From: Branchiostoma floridae
Taxonomy: Eukaryota > Chordata > Leptocardii > Amphioxiformes > Branchiostomatidae
Length of the DNA stretch: 64,000 nucleotides
Assembly (NCBI RefSeq): GCF_000003815.2
Contig: NW_023365778.1
Location: forward strand, 21,794-85,793
Direction of reading: 5' to 3'
Below, piece after piece: positions 26,101 through 50,405 of this stretch; within the stretch, counting starts at the first letter, position 1, and each line of letters opens with the position of its first letter. Under the pieces are notes generated by a model. It was not told the origin of the DNA. It worked only from the letters and a program-made list of their open reading frames with translations, and made no database searches. Position numbers and translations under genes: made by a program.

Positions 26101-29100
26101 CTAGCTTCGGTTATCGGTCTTCTAAGATTGAACATCATTGTCATTGTGAAATTGGAGGCCTCATGTTCTTTAAGAGACACACATTTGGAACCCACCACTG
26201 TAAAGGGTAATAGTCTATCCTGGTGCGAGTGGAACAAACCTAAGTATTACATGTACAGTTCATCTTAACAATCGTACAAAACTGTGATGTTATTTATTTC
26301 AAAACAAAGCATGTACCAATGCATGAAAAAATTTTGGTCTATCCCTGAGTTTCTCCAATGATACCAGTGACAATCACTGGGGAAAGTTGGCCATACAGCT
26401 AGTGTACGTCACTTGTAAGTTTAAACATAGTTACAAAGTTTGTAAATATTTACATATTTTTCTCCACAGATAAAGCTCCGCTCTGCGACTGCAGTGAAGA
26501 AGGTACAGGATTGCCTGGAGAGATTCGACCCCCGTTTTGTCACCATGATGAGAACTCCCCTTACTGTGGACCCCAACAAGCGCCTGATCATGACTGTGAA
26601 GAAGACCAGACCTGTCCCTGTAGTCACACAGCCACCCAGCTGTCCTCTGAGACCCAGGGGAGAGGCGGACGAAGGAGGTAAGGCCTAGGAAAATTAGTGC
26701 TGTGTTTTTTTCTATCCAGTAAAGGTTTAAGCATCATCAGTATTGGGCTGGCAACTAGGGCTCTCTATCTACTAAAATGCAGAAACTTTCTTGGTGGTTT
26801 TATGTTAACTTAACAGTTTTTGCAGAGGCCTCTTCACTACCAACTCAAAACCACCACAAACATTTTCCTTCTGTGTTCTACTTGTGCTGCAAAGGGCAGC
26901 CTGCTTCTCACTACATCTACCTACATGTATGTTACATTTTGTAATGGTATAGTAATATTGAAATGTATACTTGTCTCAGTGAAGAAACACGAATAAGCAA
27001 AATTATCAGATTTTTTAGTTCGCATTCATTTATTTCTCTGTATGGCTTACTGTATAACACAATAGTAGATAAGTAGTACTGTATTGGTAGAAAAGTTTAC
27101 AGTATTATGATGGAAGAAAGACATTTACATCCTTACCAACGACTTGTACCTCCCTGCAGAGAGAGTGGAACCTCCTCCCAAGCGCCCCCACGTGTCAGAC
27201 AGCTGCAGCTGTAGTTCGGGCTGCTCGTCGCGCCGGTGCGGGTGCTGGAGCTGCATGCGGCCGTGCGAGCCCAGCTGTCAGTGCACCAACTGTAACAACC
27301 CCCTCATGGTCCTCAGGCAGTTTGGGGTGGATGTGGACAAGGCACTGGAGGACGACTGTCTGGTGCTCAACTTTGCTAAGGTATGCGGTGGATTTTTCCG
27401 TTATTACCTCCGAGTCAGTAATTAAACCTAGTCATGCCTTAGCATCTCTTGAATTGTGACAATCAAACAGTTAAAGTCTGAAACAGACTTTTACTTCCCA
27501 CCCTATGAACGATTATATTATGAACTTTAAAGTTTAACATACTGAGTTCTTATGTTTGTGTGTATTTATGTATGTGTGTGTGTGTGTTTGTGTTTGGTAA
27601 CCGCATAACTCAAGTTGATGATCGTAAAATGAAAAAAAAAAAGATTACTAATAGATAATAGGGCCCCTAGTGTCTTTCAATGGTACTGCAGCATGATTTC
27701 CGGTGTTAATACCTCGTTTTTCAAGCAATTTTTCAAAGATATTTTACACTCAAGTATGACACTTATATCATGTCATCAATAGAATTTAAACTCCTGACCT
27801 CTTGTTCCAGAGGTAGAGTTTCTAACTGCAGCACTAGGCATGTGCACACTACTACTGTTAATATGCAATGTATGATAATGGAATTCACCCGCCCAGGTGC
27901 CTAACCTGCGTCAGCACCTGCAGACCCTGTACCACCTGCCGTGCTGCGGAGCCATGGTACAGCTGCTGGCCATGATCCCTGGCTGTCGCTCCTGCCCAAA
28001 GTGTAAAAACAAGGCCGTGTACTCCTACTCCTGGTGCAAGTGAGGCTGCTTTCTTCCTTTCTGTTGGGTGTTAAACCGTCTCTACTTAAAAAACAATTTC
28101 GTGTTTTTCAAATCTATGTTCTTTTCATTGAAGACAGATGACACTATATTACATTTGTAGTTGATGTTTCAATAGCCCTTGGGCAATGCAATTTTGTGCA
28201 ATCACCACAGCAGGACACAAGTCCACTAGTAGTGGTGAGTGTTCATCTACTGTGCTCTTTCCCGAATTCTGCGTGCTAAGGGAAAGCAGCTTGTGCTATT
28301 TTTAAAGACTTGGTGTGATTTGGCATAGGATCCTACTGCATCTGTCAAGGAGGGCCCAAGTCAAGTCACTTTATTATTGTTGTCACTAACTTCTTTGGCA
28401 ACATTGGTGGCTTGGACTTTCATTTTGCTAAAATGTTAAAGGAACAAGAAATTATACATCTACTGGAGCTTAATCTCTAAACTAAGGTTAACTTCATTCT
28501 GTGTTCCAGCTTTCTTCTGTGTGACCAAAACAAGAGGCCAAGGAATCACTGCACCAAATGTCGCAAGTGTAAGGACTTCAGGGATGTGCACTGCCAGGTA
28601 GGAATGACAATTGCTGCACGTTGATAAGTGTCAACCATGATCCCTTTTACATTGCTCACCACCTAAGTCCATCCTCTACACATGCCCCTACCAAAATACC
28701 ACAGTAACTGTGCCTCCTGTAATTCCTCTTAGCCCCCATTGCAAATCTGGTTAGCCCCCACCCTTCTACTTTGCCCCCAGTGGCTGCTCTCAACCAACAC
28801 TGCTCACAGTTGACACAAAAATCGTGACAAATGTAGCAATGCAGAAAGGTGATCCAGAATCACGTGTCCAGCTGCTTTTAGATTTTGTGACTGTTACTGT
28901 TACAGTTTCTTCCCAATTTTCCTGTCAACTATGAGCAGTGCAAAGTGGAAGGAGTCACAAATGTTGGTGGGCTACATTCAGGATCAATTCATACTCATTG
29001 GAAAATCACATCCAGTTACTCAAGCAACTGGATGTGATTTTACAAAATTCAAGAAACTGTTATTTGGCATATCTTATTACCTAGCAGTCTAACCATCATT

Positions 29101-29377
29101 GACATTGGATGAAAGAGTCAAATTTTCCCATTGATTTCTCTGTCAGAAATGTAACACCTGCTACTTCGCGGGAGCCCTGGGAGAACAGCGCTGCCCATGT
29201 TCGTTGCGACAGAGGACCAGCCAACAAACCGCCAGCACAGAGTCACTCTCTAGCTTCTTCCAGTTCTTTGCTGGAACCCACCAACAGCCATCAGGACAGG
29301 GGACCGGTCTTGGCCTGAACCAACTGGTACCATCCAGCTCAAACCAGCACGGACCAATTTCTGGTTCAGAAGTGTGA
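20197..29377 (+). CDS. Large low-complexity protein with C-terminal CXC-type cysteine-rich domain
   Basis: Coding exons 20197-20309, 20887-23666, 24047-24174, 24450-24511, 24991-25105, 25646-25810, 26470-26677, 27160-27380, 27897-28039, 28510-28597, 29147-29377: 1417 residues, all phases consistent. The start MENSPDSMSTW lies in a small exon whose phase 2 donor exactly completes the codon at 20887. Residues 1-964 are low in complexity (S/T/P/Q-rich, acidic stretches, an N-run GNNNNNNKSG-like at about 22663-22690). Residues about 995-1190 form a compact, mixed alpha/beta-looking domain spread over five short exons. From about residue 1205 ten cysteines in CxC pairs resemble the CXC DNA-binding domain of MSL2/tesmin proteins, and further C/H clusters follow to about residue 1355. 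I do not know the family; a nuclear DNA-binding regulator is an inference from the CXC part. No RING finger is visible, so it is not MSL2 itself. A variant poly(A) signal ATTAAA lies near 30004. Confidence 0.8.
20385..20450 (+). repeat. tRNA-derived SINE head
   Basis: The A-box-like TAGCTCAACTGGTAGCAGTC is followed by 'cacagttgagctcctg'. The same head is inverted at 24775-24850. It lies in intron 1 of the CXC gene. Confidence 0.55.
24270..24410 (+). repeat. Interspersed repeat shared with 52.1-52.25 kb
   Basis: 'ccctagcagcttgc' followed by 'tggaactgcaggggc' occurs here and at 52200-52232, with looser similarity upstream ('tatcttttg..ctg.acatg'). About 140 bp; probably a SINE or MITE piece. 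Confidence 0.6.
24650..24898 (-). repeat. SINE (reverse) next to a LINE 3' tail
   Basis: The minus strand shows the same tRNA-like head as 20385-20450 (about 24775-24850). Immediately beside it, 24868-24898 is the inverted copy of the LINE terminus seen at 13824-13855 ('caataaaggtcttcattcat'). It lies in a CXC-gene intron, ending about 90 bp before an exon. Confidence 0.6.
26790..26865. repeat. Degenerate fragment of the TACTGTAAATGCA MITE family
   Basis: 'ggtggttttatgtta' and its inverted partner 'aaaaccaccacaaac' match the interior of the copies at 1300 and 44306. Terminal repeats are not preserved. Confidence 0.5.
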
Positions 29378-30410
29378 GCTTCCTGTGTGTAGCTCACAAG
29401 CAAAATGTAGGATTTGTCTTTGACTTCTGTCAATGTTAGTTGTATTGTTAGCCTTCGGACAATCGTTCATGAAAATCATTTTTGCTTGACAATTTAGCAC
29501 TAGACTTGAGATTATGACATTTAAAGATACACAATTTGGGCCCCTTCTAATGTTGTATGGCCATTTGTTCCAGTTACTTAAGAAATGATGACACAGATTG
29601 ATCTCCATTGCTGTCTGTCTGACTAGAAGTAGGTTGTAGGGACTAGATAGGTCTGTGTTGTTTCGGTTCTTGTTCTGTCAGGAATTTCAAAGTGCCTTAA
29701 GACTCAATTTGGAAAATTAATGTTCCATGTATTTTGCCTTTCCAGTGACAGAAAGAAAGGCATAGCTTTCACTATATTCTGTTATGTTTTGTTCAGAATA
29801 ATTACTCTTGTTTCTATAGATTCTTTGAATTGTGTAAAGATTATAATTAAATTTCTATATTTTCATGTTTGTTGCTTTAATGGAAAATATATGATTTGTT
29901 GTGCATAAATTGTTATATCTATAATTCAAGATTTCTGTTGAATGTAGATTCTTAGCTCTAGTCTTAGTAGGTCACTAGTTTTTTTCTGAAAGTTTTACAA
30001 GAAATTAAAGTTTCTTCACACCTTTCTTTATCTTGGCATTTTATTTGTAAATGTGGAAAACAAGATACTGTACATAGCACATACTGTATTAAGGAGAAAT
30101 GCTAGCGGTGGTTTTATGTTCAAAATCACCGCCAACATTTCCGCTTTCGCAGTAAAACCTGCATTACATTTTCAACCGCGAACTTAGAACAACCAGGAAC
30201 ACTCAAGTTTCTCCATACAAGAAAATTAGATACACACAAACAACTCTTTTACCCTCTTTTACAGTAACTTGTAGCCTGACTAAAAATGAGATGTGGAGAA
30301 ATTATCTTTATTCCTAAGCTCCTCTCGACATGACCTGTCGACTGTTAAAACTGAAGTCTGAACTTGTTCATTGTGTTGAAACATGTTACTGATCTCGGTC
30401 GCAAACATAT
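29378..30410. other. 3' flanks between convergent CXC and HECT-like genes
   Basis: Contains the presumed 3' UTR of the CXC gene (last clear AT-rich signal ATTAAA near 30004), a MITE fragment at 30108-30190 ('agcggtggttttatgttca'), and on the minus strand AATAAA at 30312-30307, about 100 bp past the HECT-gene stop. The two genes converge with only about 1 kb between stop codons. Confidence 0.6.
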
Positions 30411-31509
30411 CTAAGGCTGGTTAAATGTTCCCTGTTCATTGTTTAACTGACTTTCCAACAATGCTTTGAATAAATCGAAGTCTGTGATCACTGGCATATC
30501 TACACTGAGCCCACAAGTAGAAAACTGGAAACCGAGAGAATTTGGTTTGAACCTGATATTCAACCGAGTGCCTGGCAGCAGGCTGTAACTTGCTGTTATG
30601 GCAAATAGAAACTGTTTCAGCATTACTTTGCCTGCATCCTGAAACCACTGCTTTACAAATGTTTTCATTTGTTCCCCAGCCTGGATATCCTCACACATAG
30701 TTGTGTCAAAATCTATTACAGAGAAAATATCCAAACCCGAGATGGCATGTTTAAATGTGTTCAGTAGTTCACATATTTCTTCCCTACACAACGTAACACC
30801 ATGTGCAGGGCCTGTGTTCCACAATTCCTGGAATCCTGTAACAAGACCCAAGATGGCAACAAATGGCCGATCCAGGCACTCAATACGAGATAGTCGCGGC
30901 AACAAAGCCTCCAAGTCTTCTCTTGTGGACGGCAATTTTGCAACATCAAATTCTAACACAGTATCTTTGACCTCCTTTTGCACATTTTTGCTTTTGAGAG
31001 CCTTTTGCAAGAGAGCTCTCACATTGTTTGGCAAGATATCATATACAAAGATATGTTGGTAGTCTCTGATGGTGTTCAATTGCTCCATGCCATTAAACAT
31101 GGCTTCCACCAAGTACAGGGTAGGTACACAGGGAACAGTCTGTGTAACACAAACATGTGGGCAGTATACCGACCCACAGCATGCCAGAAGTGATACACTG
31201 ATGGTTCAATATCAGGGGTCAGAGAAGGGATGCTGTCAAGTTTAGCATTTTTTTGCATTTCTGCCAAAACAGTTGAAAGCTCCCTGCTGGTCCCCCAACA
31301 TCTATGCCTTCTCCCATCAAAATACTACATACTGCTCATGCCAGATGCTTTCGGGGTTATCAAGGTAATAGTTGATATTCTGCTGGTGAAGTGGACTTCC
31401 ATCGTGTCTGTCAACTCGTAAACGCTGCGCCCGTGGGTTTGTGCTGATGTGTTGACGATGCCTTTGCCTGATTTCTTCAAGCAAAGATCTGGAAAGAAAA
31501 CAAAGACAA

Positions 31510-31665
31510 ATAATCGCTTGCAGGTAGATGTGCAAAAGTTAGGTGTGACGGGTTGGTTCAGTGTAATATAACCAGCTGCTGCCGCGCCACGTGCTCAGGA
31601 AGCTGATGTGTTGCGCTGAAGGGCGGTTATACCGGCTATATAGATACAGATAATCAAACTTTCTA
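31510..31665 (+). repeat. Interspersed repeat ending 'ccggctatatagatacagat'
   Basis: Copies in the same orientation lie at 43735-43895 and more weakly at 36990-37100 and 20075-20140. Shared blocks: 'agatgtgcaaaagtta', 'ttcagtgtaatataac', 'gtgtgttgcgctgaagg', and the ending named above. It lies in an intron of the HECT-like gene. Class unknown; SINE-like in size. Confidence 0.65.
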
Positions 31666-33554
31666 CTTTAATGATTTTGTCACTTGCTGTTTTCTTACTG
31701 GTATAGACCAATTTTATGGAATTTTTCAAACAAGTTTCACAAAGTACGAATTTTACAGAATTGACATGATTCATTACTAAGAAACATACAGACAAGTTTT
31801 ACAGACCCCTGATAGAGTGTTGAAAAGTAACCAAAACCTACTAAAAACTTACTAAACCTACTAATCCCTAAAAACCATGACCATGCCACATCCAGAACAC
31901 AATCTATCAAAACTTGAAGTTATGCTGCAGTTCCTTAGAAAGGACCATTGTTAAGCATTGTTAAGTAAACAAACCCAAATCTAAAGATTAAACTAAATGT
32001 ACTTACATCTGTCCAGGTGGTGCCTGGGGAAGCCAGTACTGGAAATTTGCCAGGTGTACTGGGGGTGCTGTACATACAAGAATAACATATTTCAGTTAGG
32101 CTGATTTGTTTTTGGGGTTTTTGCCAACATTACATACATGTCAATAAATACATTTATCATCACCAATTTGGCATGTAAAATTGATTAAAATAGATGACGA
32201 CTGTTTTTAACAAAGTAGCTTGCTAGCACAAAAAAACACCAGTTATAAGTGTTCTAGCCAGCCTTAATTTTTCTTAGTTCCGTCCCCTGGATTTTGAATT
32301 TGGAAATCCTGTCTAGGGCTGCAGGTGATCCTAGGGTGGTCCTGGGGCATGCTCCCCTGAAAAAAGTTCAAATCTAGACCCCCTGAAATGCTATTTCCTG
32401 CATTTTGAGGAGCACATTTTGCTTGTAGGCTCTGCTTGGTTCAAATGACAATCAAACTTGTCCTGAGCAACCACTTGATGGACTGAGCAAAAATGGTTGC
32501 TAAAGACAAGTGGTTGGTCCAGAAGTTGGTTGGCAACAGCATATATTAATAAATACATGTAAATGATTACATTCGGCACGATATACACTTTAGTTCCCAG
32601 GAAACATATCTAGTAGAGATGCCCACAGTTTTTATCTCAATGCTGTTATGAACTTAAAGTTCAAGAAACCATTGTTTAACATTCAGAGCTGTGTTTTTCT
32701 AGCAATTAAACAAAGTTTGTGTTGTAGTTGTCTGTTTCTAACACAGCTCAACAAGTGCTTTCAGTTTATAAAAATTCAATTTGCACTGTGCACAGTACTA
32801 GAAGTGTCAAATGCTTCACTGATTTTCAGACATTTCCTTAACAGATTTTTTACTGTTCTTCAACTGCATCTATCTATACCATATGGTGTTATTGTTGTGA
32901 ACATTACAGACAATGTGGATTTGAACTATTTCTGATCCAAATGTTATGACTGCTAGTGCCATAAAATGTAGAAATTCTCATTTTGAAATTGCCAATGGGC
33001 TTTATGTCTATCAATTTTTGCTGTTGTGGGGGTTTGAGAGACCCCTAGTTAAAAAGAAAAGTTGGTTGCTTGAGATAGGGTCTTAATATAGTATGTAAAA
33101 ATGGATGAGACTGTTTCAATATGTCCTCTGACGGCAGGTGGTTGTATCTTTGATTTTTGCCTGCAGATTTTTGTCCATCATAGACCTCGGAGTGGACGTG
33201 GCATGCTGAAGTTTGATCCAAATGTTTTGTTACCAAATGTAATTTGTACTTCTGGACGTAGACACCTTAGACATACTGATGATTACAACCTCAAACACAG
33301 CTAGCACTGCCCCAAAGCCAAAATAAAATTTAGCATTTACCATACCTGTTGCACGTCCAAACAGTTCTTCCTCAGTCAATCCCTCAAAATCTTCAAAAAT
33401 GGATCCTTGTATCTGTGATAAAAACATTCATAAGAAATGATTTTTTTTTTTAAATTACTTTAAAAAAATAACAGAAAATAGATACAAAATCTATCAAAAA
33501 ACATAAGTAAAAAGCAATATTAATGTAACAAATTAACAAACACCTGGTCTTCCT

Positions 33555-36160
33555 CATGGCTTGCTGCAGGTACATGAGCTGTCACCGCTAGCTCCTGGCT
33601 TGCTGCAGGTACATGAGCAGTAGCCACTAACTCCTGGCTTGCTGCAGGTACATGAGCTGTAGTGACTAGCTCCTGGCTTGCTGCAGGTACATGAGCTGTA
33701 GTGACTAACTCCTGGCTTGCTGCTGGTACGTGAGCTGTAGTGACTAATAACTCCTGGCTTGCTGCAGGTACATGAGCTGTCACTGCTACCTCCTGGCTTG
33801 CTGCAGGTACGTGAGCTGTCACCGCTAGCTCCTGGCTTGCTGCAGGTACGTGAGCTGTCACCGCTAGCTCCTGGCTTGCTGCAGGTACGTGAGCTGTAGT
33901 GACTAGCTCCTGGCTTGCTGCAGGTACGTGAGCTGTCACTGCTAGCTCCTGGCTTGCTGCAGGTACGTGAGCTGTCACCGCTGGCTCCTGGCTTGCTGCA
34001 GGTACATGAGCTGTAGCGACTAACTCCTGGCTTGCTGCAGGTACGTGAGCTGTCACCGCTGGCTCCTGGCTTGCTGCAGGTACATGAGCTGTAGCGACTA
34101 ACTCCTGGCTTGCTGCAGGTACGTGAGCTGTCACTGCTAGCTCCTGGCTTGCTGCGGGTACATGAGCTGTAGCGACTAACTCCTGGCTTGCTGCAGGTAC
34201 ATAAGCTGTAGTGACTAACTCCTGGCTTGCTGCAGGTACGTGAGCTGTCACCGCTGGCTCCTGGCTTGCTGCAGGTACGTGAGCTGTAGCGACTAACTCC
34301 TGGCTTGCTGCAGGTACATAAGCTGTAGTGACTAGCTCCTGGCTTGCTGCAGGTACGTGAGCTGTAGTGACTAGCTCCTGGCTTGCTGCAGGTACATGAG
34401 CTGTCACTGCTGTCTCCTGGCTTACTGTAGGTACAAGAGCTATATTAGCGACTAACTCCTGGCTTGCTGCAGGTACATGAGCTGTCACTGCTGGCTCCTG
34501 GCTTACTGTAGGTACAAGAGCTATATTAGCGACTGACTCCTGGCTTGCTGCAGGTACATGAGCTGTAGCGACTAGCTCCTGGCTTGCTGCAGGTACGTGA
34601 GCTGTAGTGACTAACTCCTGGCTTGCTGCAGGTACGTGAGCTGTAGTGACTACTAACTCCTGGCTTGCTGCAGGTACATGAGCTGTCACTGCTACCTCCT
34701 GGCTTGCTGCAGGTACGTGAGCTGTAGCGACTAACTCCTGGCTTGCTGCAGGTACGTGAGCTGTAGTGACTACTAACTCCTGGCTTGCTGCAGGTACATG
34801 AGCTGTCACTGCTACCTCCTGGCTTGCTGCAGGTACGTGAGCTGTAGCGACTAACTCCTGGCTTGCTGCAGGTACATGAGCCGTCACCGCTGGCTCCTGG
34901 CTTGCTGCAGGTACGTGAGCTGTAGCCACTAACTCCTGGTTTGCTGCAGGTAGGTGAGCTGTCACTGCTAGCTCCTGGCTTGCTGCAGGTACGTGAGCTG
35001 TAGCGACTAACTCCTGGCTTGCTGCAGGTACGTGAGCAGTACCGGCTAGCTCCTGGCTTGCTGCAGGTAAATGAGCTGTCACCGCTGGCTCCTGGTTTGC
35101 TGCAGGTACGTGAGCTGTCACCGCTGGCTCCTGGCTTGCTGCAGGTACGTGAGCTGTAGCGACTAACTCCTGGCTTGCTGCAGGTACATGAGCTGTCACC
35201 GCTGGCTCCTGGCTTGCTGCAGGTACGTGAGCTGTAGTGACTAGCTCCTGGCTTGCTGCAGGTACATGAGCTGTCACCGCTGTCTCCTGGCTTGCTGCTG
35301 GTACGTGAGCTGTAGTGACTAGCTCCTGGCTTGCTGCAGGTACATGAGCTGTCACCGCTGTCTCCTGGCTTGCTGCTGGTACGTGAGCTGTAGTGACTAG
35401 CTCCTGGCTTGCTGCAGGTACATGAGCTGTCACCGCTGTCTCCTGGCTTGCTGCAGGTACGTGAGAAGTAGCCACTAACTCCTGGCTTGCTGCAGGTACG
35501 TGAGCTGTCACTGCTAGCTCCTGGCTTGTTGCAGGTACGTGAGCTGTAGCCACTAACTCCTGGCTTGCTGCAGGTATGTGAGCTGTCACCGCTAGCTCCT
35601 GGCTTGCTGCAGGTACGTGAGCAGTAGCCACTAACTCCTGGCTTGCTGCAGGTACGTGAGCTGTAGTGACTAGCTCCTGGCTTACTGCAGGTACGTGAGC
35701 AGTACCGGCTAGCTCCTGGCTTGCTGCAGGTATGTGAGCTGTCACCGCTAGCTCCTGGCTTGCTGCAGGTACGTGAGCAGTAGCCACTAACTCCTGGCTT
35801 GCTGCAGGTACATGAGCTGTAGTGACTAGCTCCTGGCTTGCTGCAGGTACGTGAGCTGTAGTGACTAGCTCCTGGCTTGCTGCAGGTACGTGAGCTGTCA
35901 CTGCTAGCTCCTGGCTTGCTGCAGGTACGTGAGCTGTCACTGCTAGCTCCTGGCTTGCTGCAGGTACGTGAGCTGTCACCGCTGGCTCCTGGCTTGCTGC
36001 AGGTACGTGAGCTGTAGTGACTAACTCCTGGCTTGCTGCAGGTCTGTGAGCTGTCACCGCTGGCTCCTGGCTTGCTGCAGGTACATGAGCTGTCACTGCT
36101 AGCTCCTGGCTTGCTGCAGGTACGTGAGCTGTACCGGCTAGCTCCTGGCTTGCTGTTCCA
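33555..36160 (-). repeat. 39-bp coding minisatellite, about 66 copies
   Basis: The period is 39 bp (13 codons), with a few 42-bp units and two variant units reading ANIALVPTVSQE. On the plus strand the unit reads about 'ctcctggcttgctgcaggta' followed by 'cgtgagctgtcaccgctag'. Differences between units are mostly at a few fixed codons (ELA/ELV/EPA/ETA; VT/AT/TT), and neighbouring pairs recur as 26-residue units, a sign of unequal crossing over or conversion. Frame is kept throughout. Confidence 0.95.
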
Positions 36161-37202
36161 GGTAGATTTTGGTTAGCTGATGGTGGCAAAGGAGCCTCAT
36201 CTGTTGATAGCAGACTAGGTACAGATGTTGCTGAAGCTAGAGTAGCTGATGCCTGTCTGTTTATACTTTTCCAGTCAGTATGATTCATAATCCAGGTGGT
36301 TAGCTCACATATCTTAGTGAGTTTTTCCTGACACACGGAACTATCCACCTCATGGCCATCCCGTTGACGCCGACACTCATTTGCTGCTTCAGTGGCACGA
36401 AATGATATTTTTTCAAACAAAGACGCCATAGTTTCAGCCTCTCTGTTAGTTTTATTAAAGCTAGGTATTCTGCTATCTGCTACTGGTTTCTTCAGTTCAG
36501 GGGCATTTCCACACATGTCCTCCCATGTGCTCTTTTCTGGTGTCTTTACCTCTGTGTCATCAATTCCCACAGCATTTCCATCCATGCTGTTTACACTGTC
36601 AAAACCCGAGTCTCGTGCTGTTGCTGCACGCCTTCTATTTTCCTCCCTCATTTCTCTATCCATTCTGACATCTACTTCTTCAGTCCTGCCTTTCAGGTCC
36701 ATTTTCCTTAGATGAGATGTAAAAAACAAAAGACATACATCAAAGAAATGAAATGTCCATTTCTGCTGAATTCCTAGTCTTTTATATCAATACAATTACA
36801 GGTTTCAAATACGTTCAGAGATACTATATCAGTAATGGATGAATCAATGTTTGAAATGAAATTTGCAGTGATTTGATTTTGAAGTTAAGTGTAGAAAATG
36901 AAAATGAAGTGTCTGTAGTGGTGTTGTGTTTGCAATACCCCTGTAGTTACAAAATGCTACTGTAACAGCAATGGAAACATGGTGTAATATAACATATTGT
37001 TCAGTAAATGTAACCAACTGCTGTTGTGCTGTAGGCCTGTGAAGTTGGCGTGTTATGCTAAAGTTTGATTATACCGGCTATAATTTATGCAGATATATTG
37101 GTGCCTTTACAGACAGCCAGTCAGAAATCACCTACCAGCGAATCGGCAAAGGTTTTACAGACATACAAAACAACTGCCAATTTTTGTTAGTGCTGGCGTG
37201 AG

Positions 37203-37645
37203 GCCTAGAAAAAAAGTTTTGTTTCCTGTTTCAGTCCTGAAAAAATTAGGGTCGGTAGGTAAGGATTATCTTTTTTTCCTTGTAATTTTTCTTAGGTTGG
37301 TCAAAACTTACGTGTGACATATTACAATACAGTCAAACAAATTTAACTGAAATGCATGAGGGCACTAAATGTCTTTCAATGTCAAACTTGAATATTGTGC
37401 ATAATAGTAGTAGTAGTAGTAGTAGTAGTAGACACATTTATCCTTCATTAGATAGGACAAGCAGTGTTTTTTTTTACTTCAATACAAAGTTTATCCTTCA
37501 TTAGATAGGAAAAGCAGTGTTTTTACTTCAATGCAAAGCAGGCAGAATATGTGACTCCACTGCACACCTAAAGAAAGTCTAGGGTCGACAGGTTTTTCTA
37601 GGGTAGGTAGGGAAACAGGAAACACAACATTTTTTTCCTAGGCCT
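37203..37645. mobile_element. MITE with GGCCTAGaAAAAA ends
   Basis: The left end 'ggcctagaaaaaaagttttg' with 'tttcctgttt' and the right end 37613-37645 are inverted repeats of about 32 bp. Inside are a (TAG)n run (about 37408-37432) and a direct duplication of 'ttatccttcattagatagga'. A lone end lies at 2326-2354. It lies in intron 1 of the HECT-like gene. Confidence 0.72.
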
Positions 37646-38394
37646 GACCAACCTTCACTGATCTAAGCTCGAACTCTATTTGCCCAAGGACTGAATGATG
37701 GCTTTGACTTGGCTTGGATCTTAATAAACAATGTTGGAAAATTAGGTCTGTGTTCAATTAAGCCTTGATAGTATTTGTGAATCTTCACCATAACAGGTGC
37801 ACCTACATGTACATATTATGATTGCATTATGATACCATACAATGTAGTATGCACAGGTAGCACTTAGACAAGAGGGTTCTGGCAGAATACATGACAAAAA
37901 TATCTGGGGTGAAGAGGTCACTGCAAATCTAAAACTACCACAAAATAAATGCATTTCCAGTATTTATGTATATGCGCTCTGGTATCAATTTACTAATGAT
38001 TTCCTTTAATTTCATCATCAAAGTTGTTGCCCTGATATTTGTAACAAAATCAGTCATTTGCTAACAAAAGGAAAAGCAAAGTAAGATAACTATTCAACAT
38101 TTGCATATCAAAGTATAAGACAGGGTACCTAAACAAAACTTAGGCACGGGTACAGTTACTTGGGGTCAGGTGCAAATGTATAGGCCTGGACCGACTGTCT
38201 TTTCTTAGTGATGAAATGAAATCTTTGCATGAACTCTTCAACTGCAAGTTTTCTTCATTTTCAACTGCAAATTGATCACAATTGCCATCCTTTATATGGG
38301 ATTCTGTCCATCTGTAGCACTGTTGCCACGTCACTAGAACGTGGTTTCTGACTGGCTGTCCGTAAAGGTGTTTTCGTCACTGTAGCAGTATGTG

Positions 38395-38475
38395 ACTATC
38401 GTGAACGCAAATTCAAAACGACCGCAAACACTCTTACTGCGAAATTAAATCACACTTTAAATGCATTTACGATAC
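38395..38475. repeat. TACTGTAAATGCA-family MITE fragment (right half)
   Basis: 'aaaacgaccgcaaacactct' and 'aaatgcatttacgatac' match the right half of the copy at 1300-1510. Another short right-end piece lies at 37915-37962. Confidence 0.6.
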
Positions 38476-40334
38476 AATGCATTGAGTATTGAAAGCCTGA
38501 TGAAGATAACTGGATGGCTAAACAAATAAAACAAAAATTGGAGTGTGATTGACGTGTAGCATTCTGAGGGTTAAATCTAGCTTAGCAGACAAACTTAGTT
38601 ACCTACTTTTTCTGCCCCTCCTACTTCTGTCACAGAAGTTGGAGTAGACGGTCCTATGGCAGTCACGTCACTAGTTATTTTGAAATTGTCACCTGATAAG
38701 AAACCACAAATAAAGGGAGGGTGAAGTAAACAAACACAATTCATCAGTTATTGGATTAAGGACAAAATTTACCATCTTCATACGTACTAACAACTAGAAC
38801 ATTTGCAGAAACAACACACACAACAGCAATGGCGGACAAGCTGTGTTATGACATGCCGTCACATGCTTTCTCTAGTGCTCCATTGTGTCCCGAAGAACTG
38901 CGTCTACCCGTCCAACCTGCCGTGTTTACCACCACAGATAGTAGACATAAGGTACGACAAGGCTTAAGTTACACAAACTCCATGTTTACGAAACAATTAA
39001 AGGGAGAATTTGCCGATCAGAGGGGAAAGAAAGACAACCTACCTCTTCGCAATCTCGTCCATACGCCGTCCAAAAATGGCCGAGGTTGACGTCACTTCCT
39101 GGATCATACTAAATGCCTGCTTAAAGTTATTATGGTTACAAGAAGTAAGGCATCACAAAACTACCTTCAACATGAGCCATTCCATAGTTGCAGTCATTGC
39201 ATTGTAGTCTTGAGATACTAGGAAGAAAAATACTGTAGGCTTGAAAGTTTTCCTAAACCTTAACACACCTTTATCTAATGTTTTGGACTCGCCCATTATC
39301 GCACCGCGTGACTAGCCGACTTGCCTCAGGCATTGTGGGTAACCTGAAATCCGGAAGTTCAGAAATCACTTTCACCATTTTGGTTCCGCCATGATTGTAT
39401 CACGGACACATGTTGGTAAGCGAGTCTGCTGGGTTTACCTGACGGCGCTTTTAGATCAACCATTAATGTCAACAAGCATGACCCGGACAATCTAACAAAA
39501 GACATAAATATGTTCAACAGATCTCAAACAATGTGTTGTTTTCTTACTTTGAGGTATAGGTTGACAATCAAGCAAACAAAAACTTCTCTGTCCGGCAACG
39601 CTTAACTGGGGTACCTCCCATAGATCTGGTTTTGTAACATTCATCAGGTTTTAGACCTGGTGCCACAAACAAGGCTTAACTAATTTGGAGTTTTAAATTG
39701 CTGTAATTTTCCTTGAAAGCAAGCTTTTCAGAGCTGTGTTCTTACTACTCTTTGGCAGGGGGAGTTCTTCTAAGTAAAAAAAAATGTATGTTTAAATTCA
39801 TGCTGGTCAGGGTCACATGTGCAAGATCTAGGACAATTTATCCATAACACTGAATGGCTTATTATAATATTACACACGCATGTATGTACAATTTGCAATG
39901 GCATATCCGCACAAGATTGATTAATTCTTTATCAATGAATACTCTTTTTGCAAGGTTTGGCATACAGTACTTCCTTTAATTACAGCCTCTGTGGCTTATA
40001 TTTCAAAGGTAGGCCACACTGACTCGATTATATGGATGACTGTGCACGAATCAATTTTTGTCCATTTCCAAAACAGAAAAGTTTTCGCCCATACAAAGAA
40101 GCTGGAAAACGAGCAAATATATGCCTCACATCCAAAAAAAATATCGGAATGTGACTACTAATGTCGTAGAATGACAACGTCAATTCCAAAGTCAAAGAAG
40201 ATGTGAATGAACAAAAGTAAGAAATTCATTGCTTTGTATACCATATGCATGTTCTGTGCATTCTGTCATTTGTTCAAACTTTCTGACCACTAAGGTTTCA
40301 TAGTGAAGGCGATCTTTTCTTGCCAGACTTATAA

Positions 40335-40869
40335 GGCCACAGAAAGTAAATTATATGGATGACATCCTCTGCAGATGGCAAAAATAGTGAGATAGGGCGA
40401 AACAAAAACAAGATGGGTAGAAAAAAACAAGATGGTTAAATTTTCCAAATATACGCAATAAATGTTAAAAAAAGAATTAAAGCGATGAAACAAGGTATCA
40501 CAGCCTACAAGGCATTTATTTCTGTATTCAAGACGTGAACTGGTGTAGTAAAGGTGACACTAGGTGGTAGACTGGTATCAATTACCGACATGGCAACTAC
40601 ACTCATGGCTTCCATATTGGGGCCACTTTTACATTAGTTACAACTATCTAACTAAATTTTTAGTTTCACTTCTATAACTACAGTCATGGCTATCTGGCTA
40701 GTGTCACTTCTACAAGTACAACCATTAGCCTACAACACGACATATCTGCCCATTTTGGTACTTTCTCGTCATGTTCACCATCTCCGAAGAAAAAAAATCC
40801 TTTTTTTTTTAAATCAGACGAAAATTAATGCGCGCCTGATGTCATCCATAAAATTTACTTGCTGTGGCC
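40335..40869. mobile_element. ATGGATGACATC-family MITE, 535 bp
   Basis: The ends 'ggccacagaaagtaaattat' and, inverted, 'ggccacagcaagtaaatttt' both run on to 'atggatgacatc' (about 31 bp TIR). The related left end of a second copy starts at 40013 just upstream ('attatatggatgac'), and a lone right end lies at 54318-54350. Confidence 0.8.
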
Positions 40870-46859: not shown

Positions 46860-47338
46860 TTTTGGCTACCGTTCGCTCCGGAGCTGGCCATGGACCACCG
46901 TGCGCTCCAGAGCTGGACTGTGCGCTCCAGAGCTGGATAGTGCACTCTGGAGCTGGACTGTGCGCTCCAGGGCTGGATCGATAGTGCCCTCCAGAGCTGA
47001 TAGTGCGCTCCAGAGCTGTAATAGTGCCCTCCAGAGCTGATAGTGCGCTCCAGAGCTGTAATAGTGCCCTCCAGAACTGATAGTGCGCTCCAGAGCTGGA
47101 TATAGTGCGCTAGCGCTCCAGAGCTGATAATGCGCTCCAGGGCTGGATAGTGCCCTCCAGAGCTGATAGTGCGCTCCAGGGCTGGATAGTGCCCTCCAGA
47201 GTTGATAGTGCGCTCCAGGGCTGGATAGTGCCCTCCAGAGCTGATAGTGCGCTCCAGGGCTGGATAGTGCCCTCCAGAGCTGATAGTGCGCTCCAGAGCT
47301 GTAATAGTGCCCTCCAGAGCTGATAGTGCGCTCCAGAG
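46860..47338. repeat. Minisatellite, left block (ctccagagctgatagtgcg type)
   Basis: Imperfect units of about 20 bp alternate as 'gtgcgctccagagctg' and 'gtgccctccagagctg', with 40-bp higher-order pairs. A landmark irregular unit 'ggatatagtgcgctagcgct' occurs at about 47098-47117. The block stops abruptly where the LINE 3' end begins. Confidence 0.92.
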
Positions 47339-50101
47339 CAAAATAATCTTTATTGACACGACAAAAGTACAGCGACTTTCGTAAGGTCTACATGTATAAC
47401 AACTACTTACATTACAACTAAACACATATATATGGATATCTATAGGTATGGATACATCAACATAAAGGGTTTAGCATGTCATTTATACTATTGGTTCTAC
47501 GGTATAAACAATCGTGGATATATTTGCCTACTTGTACACAATGTGGATTATCGCTTCCCAGAATGTACTTGAATTTATCTATCGAACAGAGAGTAGCAAA
47601 GTCTTTAGAGGAAGTGGAAAGTAATGTGAACAGCTCTGTGCGTTTATCATCATATCGAGAACATTCCATAACGAAGTGACGTTCGTCTTCGATCTCATTT
47701 GGGCAGAATGGACAAAACCTCTGGTCACGGGGAATTTTAGAATATCTTCCGGCTTCTATATTTAGTTTGTGACTACAGATTCTTATCTTTGTAATTGCTC
47801 TACGAAGTTCGAAATTGTGTACATTCGAAAGATACTTCTTTTGTCCGTATCTTTCCTTTAGCGTAGAATAAATGGAAAGTTTTGAGTTATTCTGGATAGA
47901 AGAATGCCATTCTTGAATGTATATATCCTGTAAACGGAGTCGTAATTGGTCGATTAGCGTATTAACATGATACAACCTCGGGTTTGTCCATACATACCCA
48001 AAACCATTATAGTTGAGAATGTCAGTTACGTGATTTGTCCAATCGTATTCAGCGGAAAGTACAACATCATATGCTTCACGTAGTAAAGAATCTTCGGGTA
48101 AGTTTGCTAGACGGTGCCAGTATTTGATTAATTGTATCTCAGCGTTGATCGAAATAGGAAATGATCCTAACTCACCACGGATGCCGTCATTTGATGATTT
48201 TGCATGTACTCCAAGTAAAAATTTTTGGAAATTCATGTCAATGGTATCAAATTCTGGGATACTAATATGTGAAGGAAGTCGTATGTTTTCAATTGCGAAG
48301 TTGTCATTTTCTAATTTCATTCCTGATGCCAGTCTCAATAATCTATCCTTGTCTGATCTTTTCTTAAAATGGATGACGTAAGTATGAGTGAGGTCCGAAG
48401 ACACACTCTTTCTAACAGTTGCAGGAAGATTTCCCTCTAAATGGAGTTTGTTTAAAAGGGAAGAGAAAACAGTTTTGGGTGAAGATTCTGGAATTTGTTT
48501 TGATACAATAATTTTGATTGTTTTAGAAGTTTGGTCAAAACATGTGAGTTCGGCTCCGTACAGTAGAATAGGTAGTACAAACTTGTTGAAAAGGCTCATT
48601 CCTAAATGAATTGGAATGTTCTTTTCAGAGAATAAAAGTGACTTCAATTTGAATAAAGCTCTCATGGCTTTAGTCTTTAAATATTTTCTGGCTGCTTTAA
48701 ACTTACCCGAAGAAGTCAGGGGAATACCAAGGTAAGTATAACTGTCGGCTACTTGTATTTCTTTGCCATATATATAGAATTTGTTTGATAATCTGTTAAT
48801 AGAACCTTTTGTAAAAACCAGTACTTTCGTTTTGGATACATTGACCCTTAATTTCCATTTGTTGCAATAAGCTTCCAGGTTATTGATACAATTCTGAAGC
48901 CCCTCTTTCGACAATGAGATCAAGGCTAAGTCATCTGCCCAAGATAGACAGTTGAGTGATTTAGAATTCAAAATTGCGGCATCACATTTATCATCAAAGC
49001 ATTGAGGTAAGTCGTTAATAAAAATATTGAATAATAATGGGCTGAGATTGCAGCCTTGTCTTACTCCGCATGTGGAAACAAAGGGGCTTGACAGGCCATT
49101 TTGTAGTCTGACAGTATAGTTAACATTGAGGTACATGGACTGCAATACATTGAAGAATTTCCCACCAACACCAAGATTTAACAATTTGTAGAATAAACCA
49201 TCCCGCCATACACTGTCAAACGCTTTCTTCATGTCAACAAAACAAACATATAATTTCCCTCCCTTTTTTTCAATATATTTCTCAATAAGAGCTTTCAGGA
49301 TAAATACATTGTCAGAGGTTCGGCACTTTCTTCTGAATCCGAATTGAGTGTCGGCTAGCAGACAATTGCTTTCAACGAATTTCTGTAAGCGACTATTTAA
49401 AAGGAATGTGAACAATTTGGATAGGCAGCTTGAGATAGCGATTCCTCTATAATTATCTACATTAGATTTGTCACCAGATTTAAAAATTGGTGTAAGGATG
49501 CTTGTGTTCCAGTTAGATGGAAACTTGTTGTTGGAAAGGATTGTATTAAAGAGAATGACCAGTGGTTCGCATATCTTTTCTGCCCCATATTTCAACATCT
49601 CGTTTGAGATAGAGTCAATACCACATGATTTTCCAGATTTTAGTGATTTCAAACCATTCATAATTTCTGGTGTCGTGAAAGGGTAATCTAATGAATTTGA
49701 AGTGTTTTTATCTAGATGTTTAAGAGAATCAGTGACACTTTTTTCAAAAGTACTGTCAAAATCATTGTTTTTTACCAGATTATTTAATCCTTGAAAGTGT
49801 TCTATCCATTCTTTACTTGTGATATTAGGATCTATATTACCGCTATATTTTGTGCCGTTTACTTCCTTATCAAGAGTATTGAACAATGACCAAAATTGTT
49901 TGGGGTTTTTCTCATTTAATGTTTCTAGATCACGTAATAGATTGGCTTTATAATTCCGTTTAGAATGTTTTATAATTTTTTTGTAGTCTTTCAAGGCTGT
50001 GAAGTACTTCGTTCTGGTTTCTTGTTTCCATGGTTCTTTCCTCAGTTCTAAAGATAATCTTTTAACTCTATGACGTAGGGACCAACAATTTTGATCAAAC
50101 C
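47339..50101 (-). mobile_element. 5'-truncated LINE, inserted in the minisatellite
   Basis: One open frame runs from the truncation at about 50100 to a stop at 47457, about 880 codons. Reverse transcriptase motifs are clear: an A-type VCFVDMKKAFDSVW, a B-type GVRQGCNLSPLLFNIF, and a C-type motif reading WADD instead of F/YADD. A C-terminal C-x2-C...H...C knuckle (FCPFCPNEIEDERHFVMEC) follows, related to the fragment at 13456. The endonuclease domain and first ORF are missing. A short 3' UTR holds AATAAA just before the end at 47339. The clade is not settled from motifs alone (CR1/jockey-like). With an intact polymerase but no 5' end it was probably dead on arrival yet young. Confidence 0.9.
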
Positions 50102-50405
50102 ATAGTGCCCTCCAGAACTGATAGTGCGCTCCAGAGCTGGATATAGTGCGCTAGCGCTCCAGAGCTGATAATGCGCTCCAGTGCTGGATAGTGCCCTCCA
50201 GAGCTGATAGTGCGCTCCAGGGCTGGATAGTGCCCTCCAGAGTTGATAGTGCGCTCCAGGGCTGGATAGTGCCCTCCAGAGCTGATAGTGCGCTCCAGGG
50301 CTGGATAGTGCCCTCCAGAGTTGATAGTGCGCTCCAGAGCTGGATAGTGCCCTCCAGAGCTGATAGTGCGCTCCAGAGCTGTAATAGTGCGCTCCGGAGC
50401 TGCAC
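50102..50405. repeat. Minisatellite, right block
   Basis: Same 20/40-bp units as the left block. From 50102 to about 50379 it aligns unit by unit to 47061-47338, including the irregular unit at about 50139-50158, with only a handful of differences. It ends in 'gctccggagctgcac'. Confidence 0.93.

Follow-up and report, generated by a model that had tools for sequence, protein, structure and literature searches.

Does a long run of 13-residue repeats in a lancelet genome form part of a ubiquitin ligase of the HECT family, or does it only lie beside the remains of one? The question is raised by a stretch of 64,000 nucleotides from Branchiostoma floridae (NCBI RefSeq assembly GCF_000003815.2, contig NW_023365778.1, positions 21,794 to 85,793 of the forward strand), hereafter called the window, in which a tandem array on the minus strand is followed downstream by a HECT-like region. 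In the reading that we favour, and to which we give about an even chance, this is a fast-diverging gene of the HECT family in whose second exon a coding minisatellite has expanded. Judged by sequence similarity the gene is a distant HECT relative, because its C-terminal half is similar to a locus elsewhere in the genome (L010) that itself passes the Pfam HECT cut-off. The ligase part, as it stands in this assembly, represents either an assembly error or a recent pseudogene. The features of the gene model, in coordinates of the window, are as follows.

39043..39062, minus strand: candidate for the first coding exon (MDEIAKR), its phase matching that of the repeat exon; weak, at 20 bases
33544..36706, minus strand: repeat exon, with a unique N-terminal part (183 codons from the ATG at 36702) followed by the array; AG acceptor before 36706 and GT donor after 33544
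33565..36153, minus strand: array of 66 complete units, consensus ASQEL[AV][VTA]TAHVPA; free of lysine and cysteine, with one arginine
33346..33412, minus strand: short exon IQGSIFEDFEGLTEEELFGRAT, with GT-AG boundaries and in phase
32007..32067, minus strand: short exon PPVHLANFQYWLPQAPPGQ, with GT-AG boundaries and in phase
30411..31488, minus strand: last exon with the HECT-like region, similar to L010; stop codon at 30411-30413
31118..31319, minus strand: stretch of the HECT N-lobe with three frame changes (near 31319, 31296 and 31120)
30513..30515, minus strand: candidate codon of the catalytic cysteine (in STCG), which the alignment pairs with the HTC of L010

The repeat array and its exon

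Tandem Repeats Finder (TRF) reports the array at 33553-36155 with a period of 39 base pairs (bp) and 66.4 copies. Read in the minus-strand frame, the 66 complete units comprise 61 of 13 residues and five of 14 residues, 863 residues altogether, and all five of the longer units are extended by three bases. Variability between units is found mainly at residues 5-7, and 39 distinct DNA versions exist among the 66. Unit identity is 0.896 at a spacing of two or four units as against 0.857 for neighbours, a sign that the array has a two-unit higher-order period. No stop interrupts the frame between the ATG at 36702 and the end of the array, and the enclosing stop-to-stop open reading frame (ORF) at 33520-36786 has 1088 codons. 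The original prediction of a 66-copy in-frame repeat of 13 residues is thus borne out by TRF and by the count of units.

The same prediction stressed that the frame runs unbroken over 2.6 kb. This is correct as a description, but the unit itself largely accounts for it: of the 117 single-base substitutions possible in the consensus, just 2 introduce a stop, and no more than three stops interrupt a second frame across the array. For these reasons the open frame of the array says little of coding, and its openness was ruled out as proof. A crude ratio of the dN/dS type (nonsynonymous over synonymous change) within the array is 0.36 in frame, compared with 0.65 and 0.54 in the other two frames, which is no clear sign of selection. 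We read the gene as coding because its unique parts are open in a way that shuffled sequences are not. Shuffling the 183 codons 5' of the array gave 11.8 stops on average, and shuffling the 246 codons of the C-terminal half (30414-31151) gave 13.1; both real sequences are stop-free, and not one of 2000 shuffles of either was open. Two short pieces that lie between these unique parts, within the last exon, are weak evidence alone, with 152 and 239 open sequences among 2000 shuffles each.

A distant HECT relationship and a broken frame

Since pieces of the window gave no direct match to the Pfam HECT family (PF00632), they were compared with 16 genomic loci at HECT matches, two of which (L011 and L012) were compared in part only. 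The C-terminal half matched L010 (G000:C2:8684000-8690000) at E=1.7e-6. Against an enlarged set (37 loci, 290,152 bases; left out were L009, which is the stretch of the window itself, and L039, a locus of 4 bases) the same match had E=5.6e-6, the best of 100 shuffles reaching 0.005. The adjoining piece 31079-31309 matched this locus in the correct order at E=0.001, again with 0.005 as the best of 100 shuffles. Pairwise BLASTP of the C-terminal half against L010 gave E 9e-9 over 172 residues with 22% identity, and the C-terminus of L010 itself lies above the Pfam HECT cut-off (29.8 bits vs 23.9, E 6.2e-7). The cysteine of STCG that is aligned with HTC is residue 213 of the 246 in the C-terminal half, 33 residues from the end. 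A search of the PDB with L010 returned 11 weak rows, nine of which are HECT ligases (HUWE1, SMURF2 and E6AP; E 0.29-0.94). The HECT-like identity that was originally proposed is therefore supported through an intermediate, with the TC cysteine aligned, but not by a direct Pfam HECT match.

A number of results weigh against the favoured reading. PF00632 was matched neither by the pieces 30414-31205, 31079-31309, 31331-31486, 30414-30701 and 30414-31151 nor by a joined reading with X at the breaks, so that the original prediction, which had staked itself on a HECT hit for 30411-31488, literally fails for the pieces scanned. The genome-wide search with PF00632 gave 67 exon matches, and none is on the contig of the window. 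The N-lobe piece of L010 alone has no Pfam match either. The other 15 of the 16 HECT-match loci, including the partly compared L011 and L012, did not fall below E=0.01, and the N-terminal part together with the first part of the last exon had no match below E=1 among the HECT loci. Searches of PDB sequences with pieces of the window or with a two-row alignment returned no HECT chain. The AlphaFold2 model of the C-terminal half is unusable, with a predicted local distance difference test score (pLDDT) of 37.7; no HECT protein was among the best 50 of its 63 fold matches, and this fold search is uninformative because the model is too poor. A whole-genome search with the C-terminal half returned one match, itself. 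By this sequence search we found no close second copy of the gene in its own genome, and the search excludes close copies only, because L010 also went unreported. Within the array, diversity at codon positions 1-3 is 0.092, 0.122 and 0.147, with no clear skew toward the third position. Finally, the frame of the HECT domain is broken three times between 31319 and 31118.

These breaks deserve a closer description. The chain of five exons has GT-AG boundaries and a consistent phase up to the last exon, but the phase that arrives from the upstream exons meets a stop at 31317-31319 inside it. A second frame holds GEGIDVGG and a third holds SREL...VYL; from LYLVEAMF... to STCGLSVDMP the first frame is read again. 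The in-phase splicing to a HECT-like domain that the original prediction described is hence upheld as far as the last exon and lost within it, and the layout of the HECT N-lobe in three frames was overlooked. All three changes go in the same direction, together they span about 200 bases, and each lies by a short single-base run. Assembly errors are the more likely cause, rather than true mutations: an error of the consensus is favoured over old decay because the changes share one direction, are clustered and occur by single-base runs, while the other long unique parts are stop-free. Programmed frameshifting three times within 200 bases seems implausible. The predicted RNA folding across the broken stretch has a z of -2.2, and one of 20 shuffles folds equally well. 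Among the inverted repeats in 28500-40500, we read none as transposon ends around the gene.

If the frame changes are true, the locus would be a recent pseudogene with a dead ligase and the array a passenger minisatellite, which we consider possible, if doubtful. Three frame changes in the N-lobe are what such a history would leave behind, the array could still be open since few changes of its unit create stops, and the divergence is so high that Pfam misses the HECT domain; the gene also lies on a small contig (C220, 85,793 bases). However, no stop occurs in the unique codons to either side, 183 and 246 in number, and neutral decay does not predict three changes so close together, in one direction and by single-base runs. 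Two other long ORFs of the window, one of 897 codons with a reverse transcriptase (RT) and one of 940 codons, are open as well. It is distinctly unlikely that the array is part of another transcript or of an intron and not of the HECT protein. Such a separation gains some credit from arrays longer than 200 bp (TRF score at least 100) in 10 of the 20 10-kb regions upstream of other HECT exons, these regions being 20 of about 24 HECT gene places by our own grouping of the PF00632 matches. Here, however, the array exon opens with unique open codons, its GT-AG boundaries and phase fit the next three exons, and all five longer units differ by a multiple of three bases.

The predicted lysine-free arm

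Returning to the expanded coding minisatellite, the arm that it would encode has no lysine in 863 residues, and it holds no cysteine, one arginine and 66 acidic residues. In the joined model the lysine-free run amounts to 38 + 863 + 127 = 1028 residues. Lysine scarcity in the flanks of 38 and 127 residues has P=0.004, the smallest value among the 20 residues tested. Here too some figures count against us: the P value becomes 0.084 once corrected for 20 residues, and only 3 of the 117 changes of the unit would create a lysine, so that selection against lysine is unproven. The lysine poverty of the flanks is suggestive only.

Long lysine-free stretches are enriched in proteins of the ubiquitin pathway, and lysines put into several of them raised ubiquitination, as described in the available part of PMC10169902; the list given there was filtered by sequence complexity because lysine-less simple repeats would rank high. 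Lysine deserts also occur in many ubiquitin (E3) ligases (PMC10665810, available part). The putative lancelet protein resembles the E3 ligases San1, Slx5, RNF6, RNF111 and HECD1 and the partner BAG6, which are named in these sources, in that a protein assigned to the ubiquitin pathway has a long lysine-free stretch. The lysine-free stretch of 1028 residues in the joined model exceeds the reported lengths of 950 for BAG6 and 253 for HECD1. In contrast to these proteins the arm is a simple repeat that is nearly arginine-free too. A lysine desert is also expected to be conserved between orthologues, and the length of the arm, seen here in one genome, makes the protein a candidate for this class.

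How such a protein might function can be sketched. If the gene is transcribed and spliced as modelled, its product would begin with a short unique N-terminus and continue with the arm, for which the expanded minisatellite supplies 66 nearly identical units of 13 residues. The HECT domain would follow at the C-terminus, and this end would form the ubiquitin thioester and pass ubiquitin on. We propose that the arm would be spared self-ubiquitination, because the array and its flanks are without lysine; it would escape its own ligase activity and could remain exposed as a long tether. The PAASQE repeated in every unit may show one binding or phosphorylation site to possible partners dozens of times, and unequal recombination would alter the number of sites while the frame is kept. 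A more far-reaching version, which we regard as a long shot, holds that the encoded HECT ligase is active, that its arm serves as a platform of variable length which escapes self-ubiquitination, that the SQE sites act as repeated kinase, TRAF or USP7 docking sites, and that copy number tunes a signal threshold between individuals or somatic cells.

The array contains 64 SQ matches, 63 of the TRAF type ([PSAT]x[QE]E) and 63 of the USP7 type. Among 5000 shuffled units the TRAF-type pattern occurred in 5%, SQ in 16% and the USP7-type pattern in 32%, and the matches are therefore no proof by themselves.

The idea of a long flexible or multivalent arm is unproven, and the sole structure prediction is beta-rich. 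AlphaFold2 run on 12 units from the single sequence gave a pLDDT of 77.4 and a predicted template modelling score (pTM) of 0.71, with one strand of 5-9 residues per unit. From this one may suppose a folded beta rod with one strand per unit in place of a flexible tether, a version that is compatible with a coding minisatellite in a HECT-family gene and that we think rather unlikely. AlphaFold2 is reported to fold repeats into beta-solenoids that score well yet are unrealistic, with stacks of charge left uncompensated (PMC11795689, available part), and the array has 66 acidic residues with a single arginine to offset them; the best Foldseek match of the 12-unit model to a solved structure has only E=0.091. 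On both counts we do not accept the arm as an established beta-solenoid.

Minisatellites, related systems and significance

Minisatellites are common near the HECT genes of this genome. The longest of the upstream arrays measure 2324 and 1807 bp, and none of the arrays has a 39-bp period. One array of 2.3 kb with a 10-bp unit and 232 copies (L030, 1-2324, G000:C7) lies upstream of another HECT gene and reaches the edge of the fetched sequence. Upstream of L010, past retroelement-like ORFs, is an 18-bp tandem array with several frames open (L037, 5275-5675, G000:C2), which is probably outside the L010 gene. In the window itself, a minus-strand RT ORF at 47457-50150 (RVT_1, 4.3e-40) stands between minisatellites at 46900-47339 and 50102-50402 that share the same 39-bp unit; the region 46900-50402 is either a long interspersed nuclear element whose ends are repeated or an array that has taken up an insertion. 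Elsewhere in the window, a plus-strand ORF at 2477-2980 matches the C-terminal region of glycerol-3-phosphate acyltransferase (PF19277, 5.7e-9). Minisatellites in amphioxus genes differ in length between haplotypes, with somatic instability at one locus, as reported in the accessible part of PMC3087553, and by analogy the copy number of our array likely varies between individuals, as originally predicted. The gene minisatellites and 'mirages' described there are, like ours, length-variable tandem arrays within lancelet genes. Whereas the mirages, as described there, span an exon-intron boundary, the array at 33565-36153 sits entirely in the exon 33544-36706 and is translated in the model.

With HECT ligases (PF00632), by way of L010, the gene shares the C-terminal position of the domain, the aligned TC cysteine, GEGIDVGG and SREL, and a similarity of two pieces in the right order. 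It differs from them in lying below Pfam detection, in a frame broken in the assembly and in the 863-residue repeat in front. The G2E3 subfamily carries PHD-type zinc fingers ahead of the HECT domain. No such fingers appeared in the Pfam scan of the repeat exon, which covered 1054 residues from the ATG at 36702, the three short exons lying outside the scan; it yielded only Lysostaphin_N and a sub-threshold Cementoin. The Lysostaphin_N match (PF25533) on 33544-36702 exceeds the cut-off, with 64.2 bits against 60. The lysostaphin repeat is also 13 residues long, and we rejected this identity as a chance likeness in composition between two 13-residue repeats, with no peptidase domain in the scanned pieces. 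Such a match is a false friend that could mislabel repeat proteins of this kind.

Tandem repeats joined to HECT-type ligase activity are also reported for TRP120 of Ehrlichia, a bacterial effector with four repeats of 80 residues, which is likened here by its (partly available) description only. Among the best literature matches on the topic, which are not proof of absence, no HECT gene of such make is described. To our knowledge the combination of a HECT-related gene with such a repeat arm is new, although arrays of this type are familiar in this genome. A survey of animal HECT genes places most subfamilies early (PMC2837046); neither 'repeat' nor 'Branchiostoma' occurs in its available text, so that its silence on lancelets is worth little.

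If the locus is a pseudogene, it still cautions against taking an open frame as much evidence of coding where the period of a tandem repeat is a multiple of three. A working gene would put the idea of lysine deserts to a natural test, in a HECT enzyme with an extremely long one. In this chordate, with minisatellites known to be unstable in length, alleles that occur in nature could then be examined for differences in arm length, self-ubiquitination and stability.

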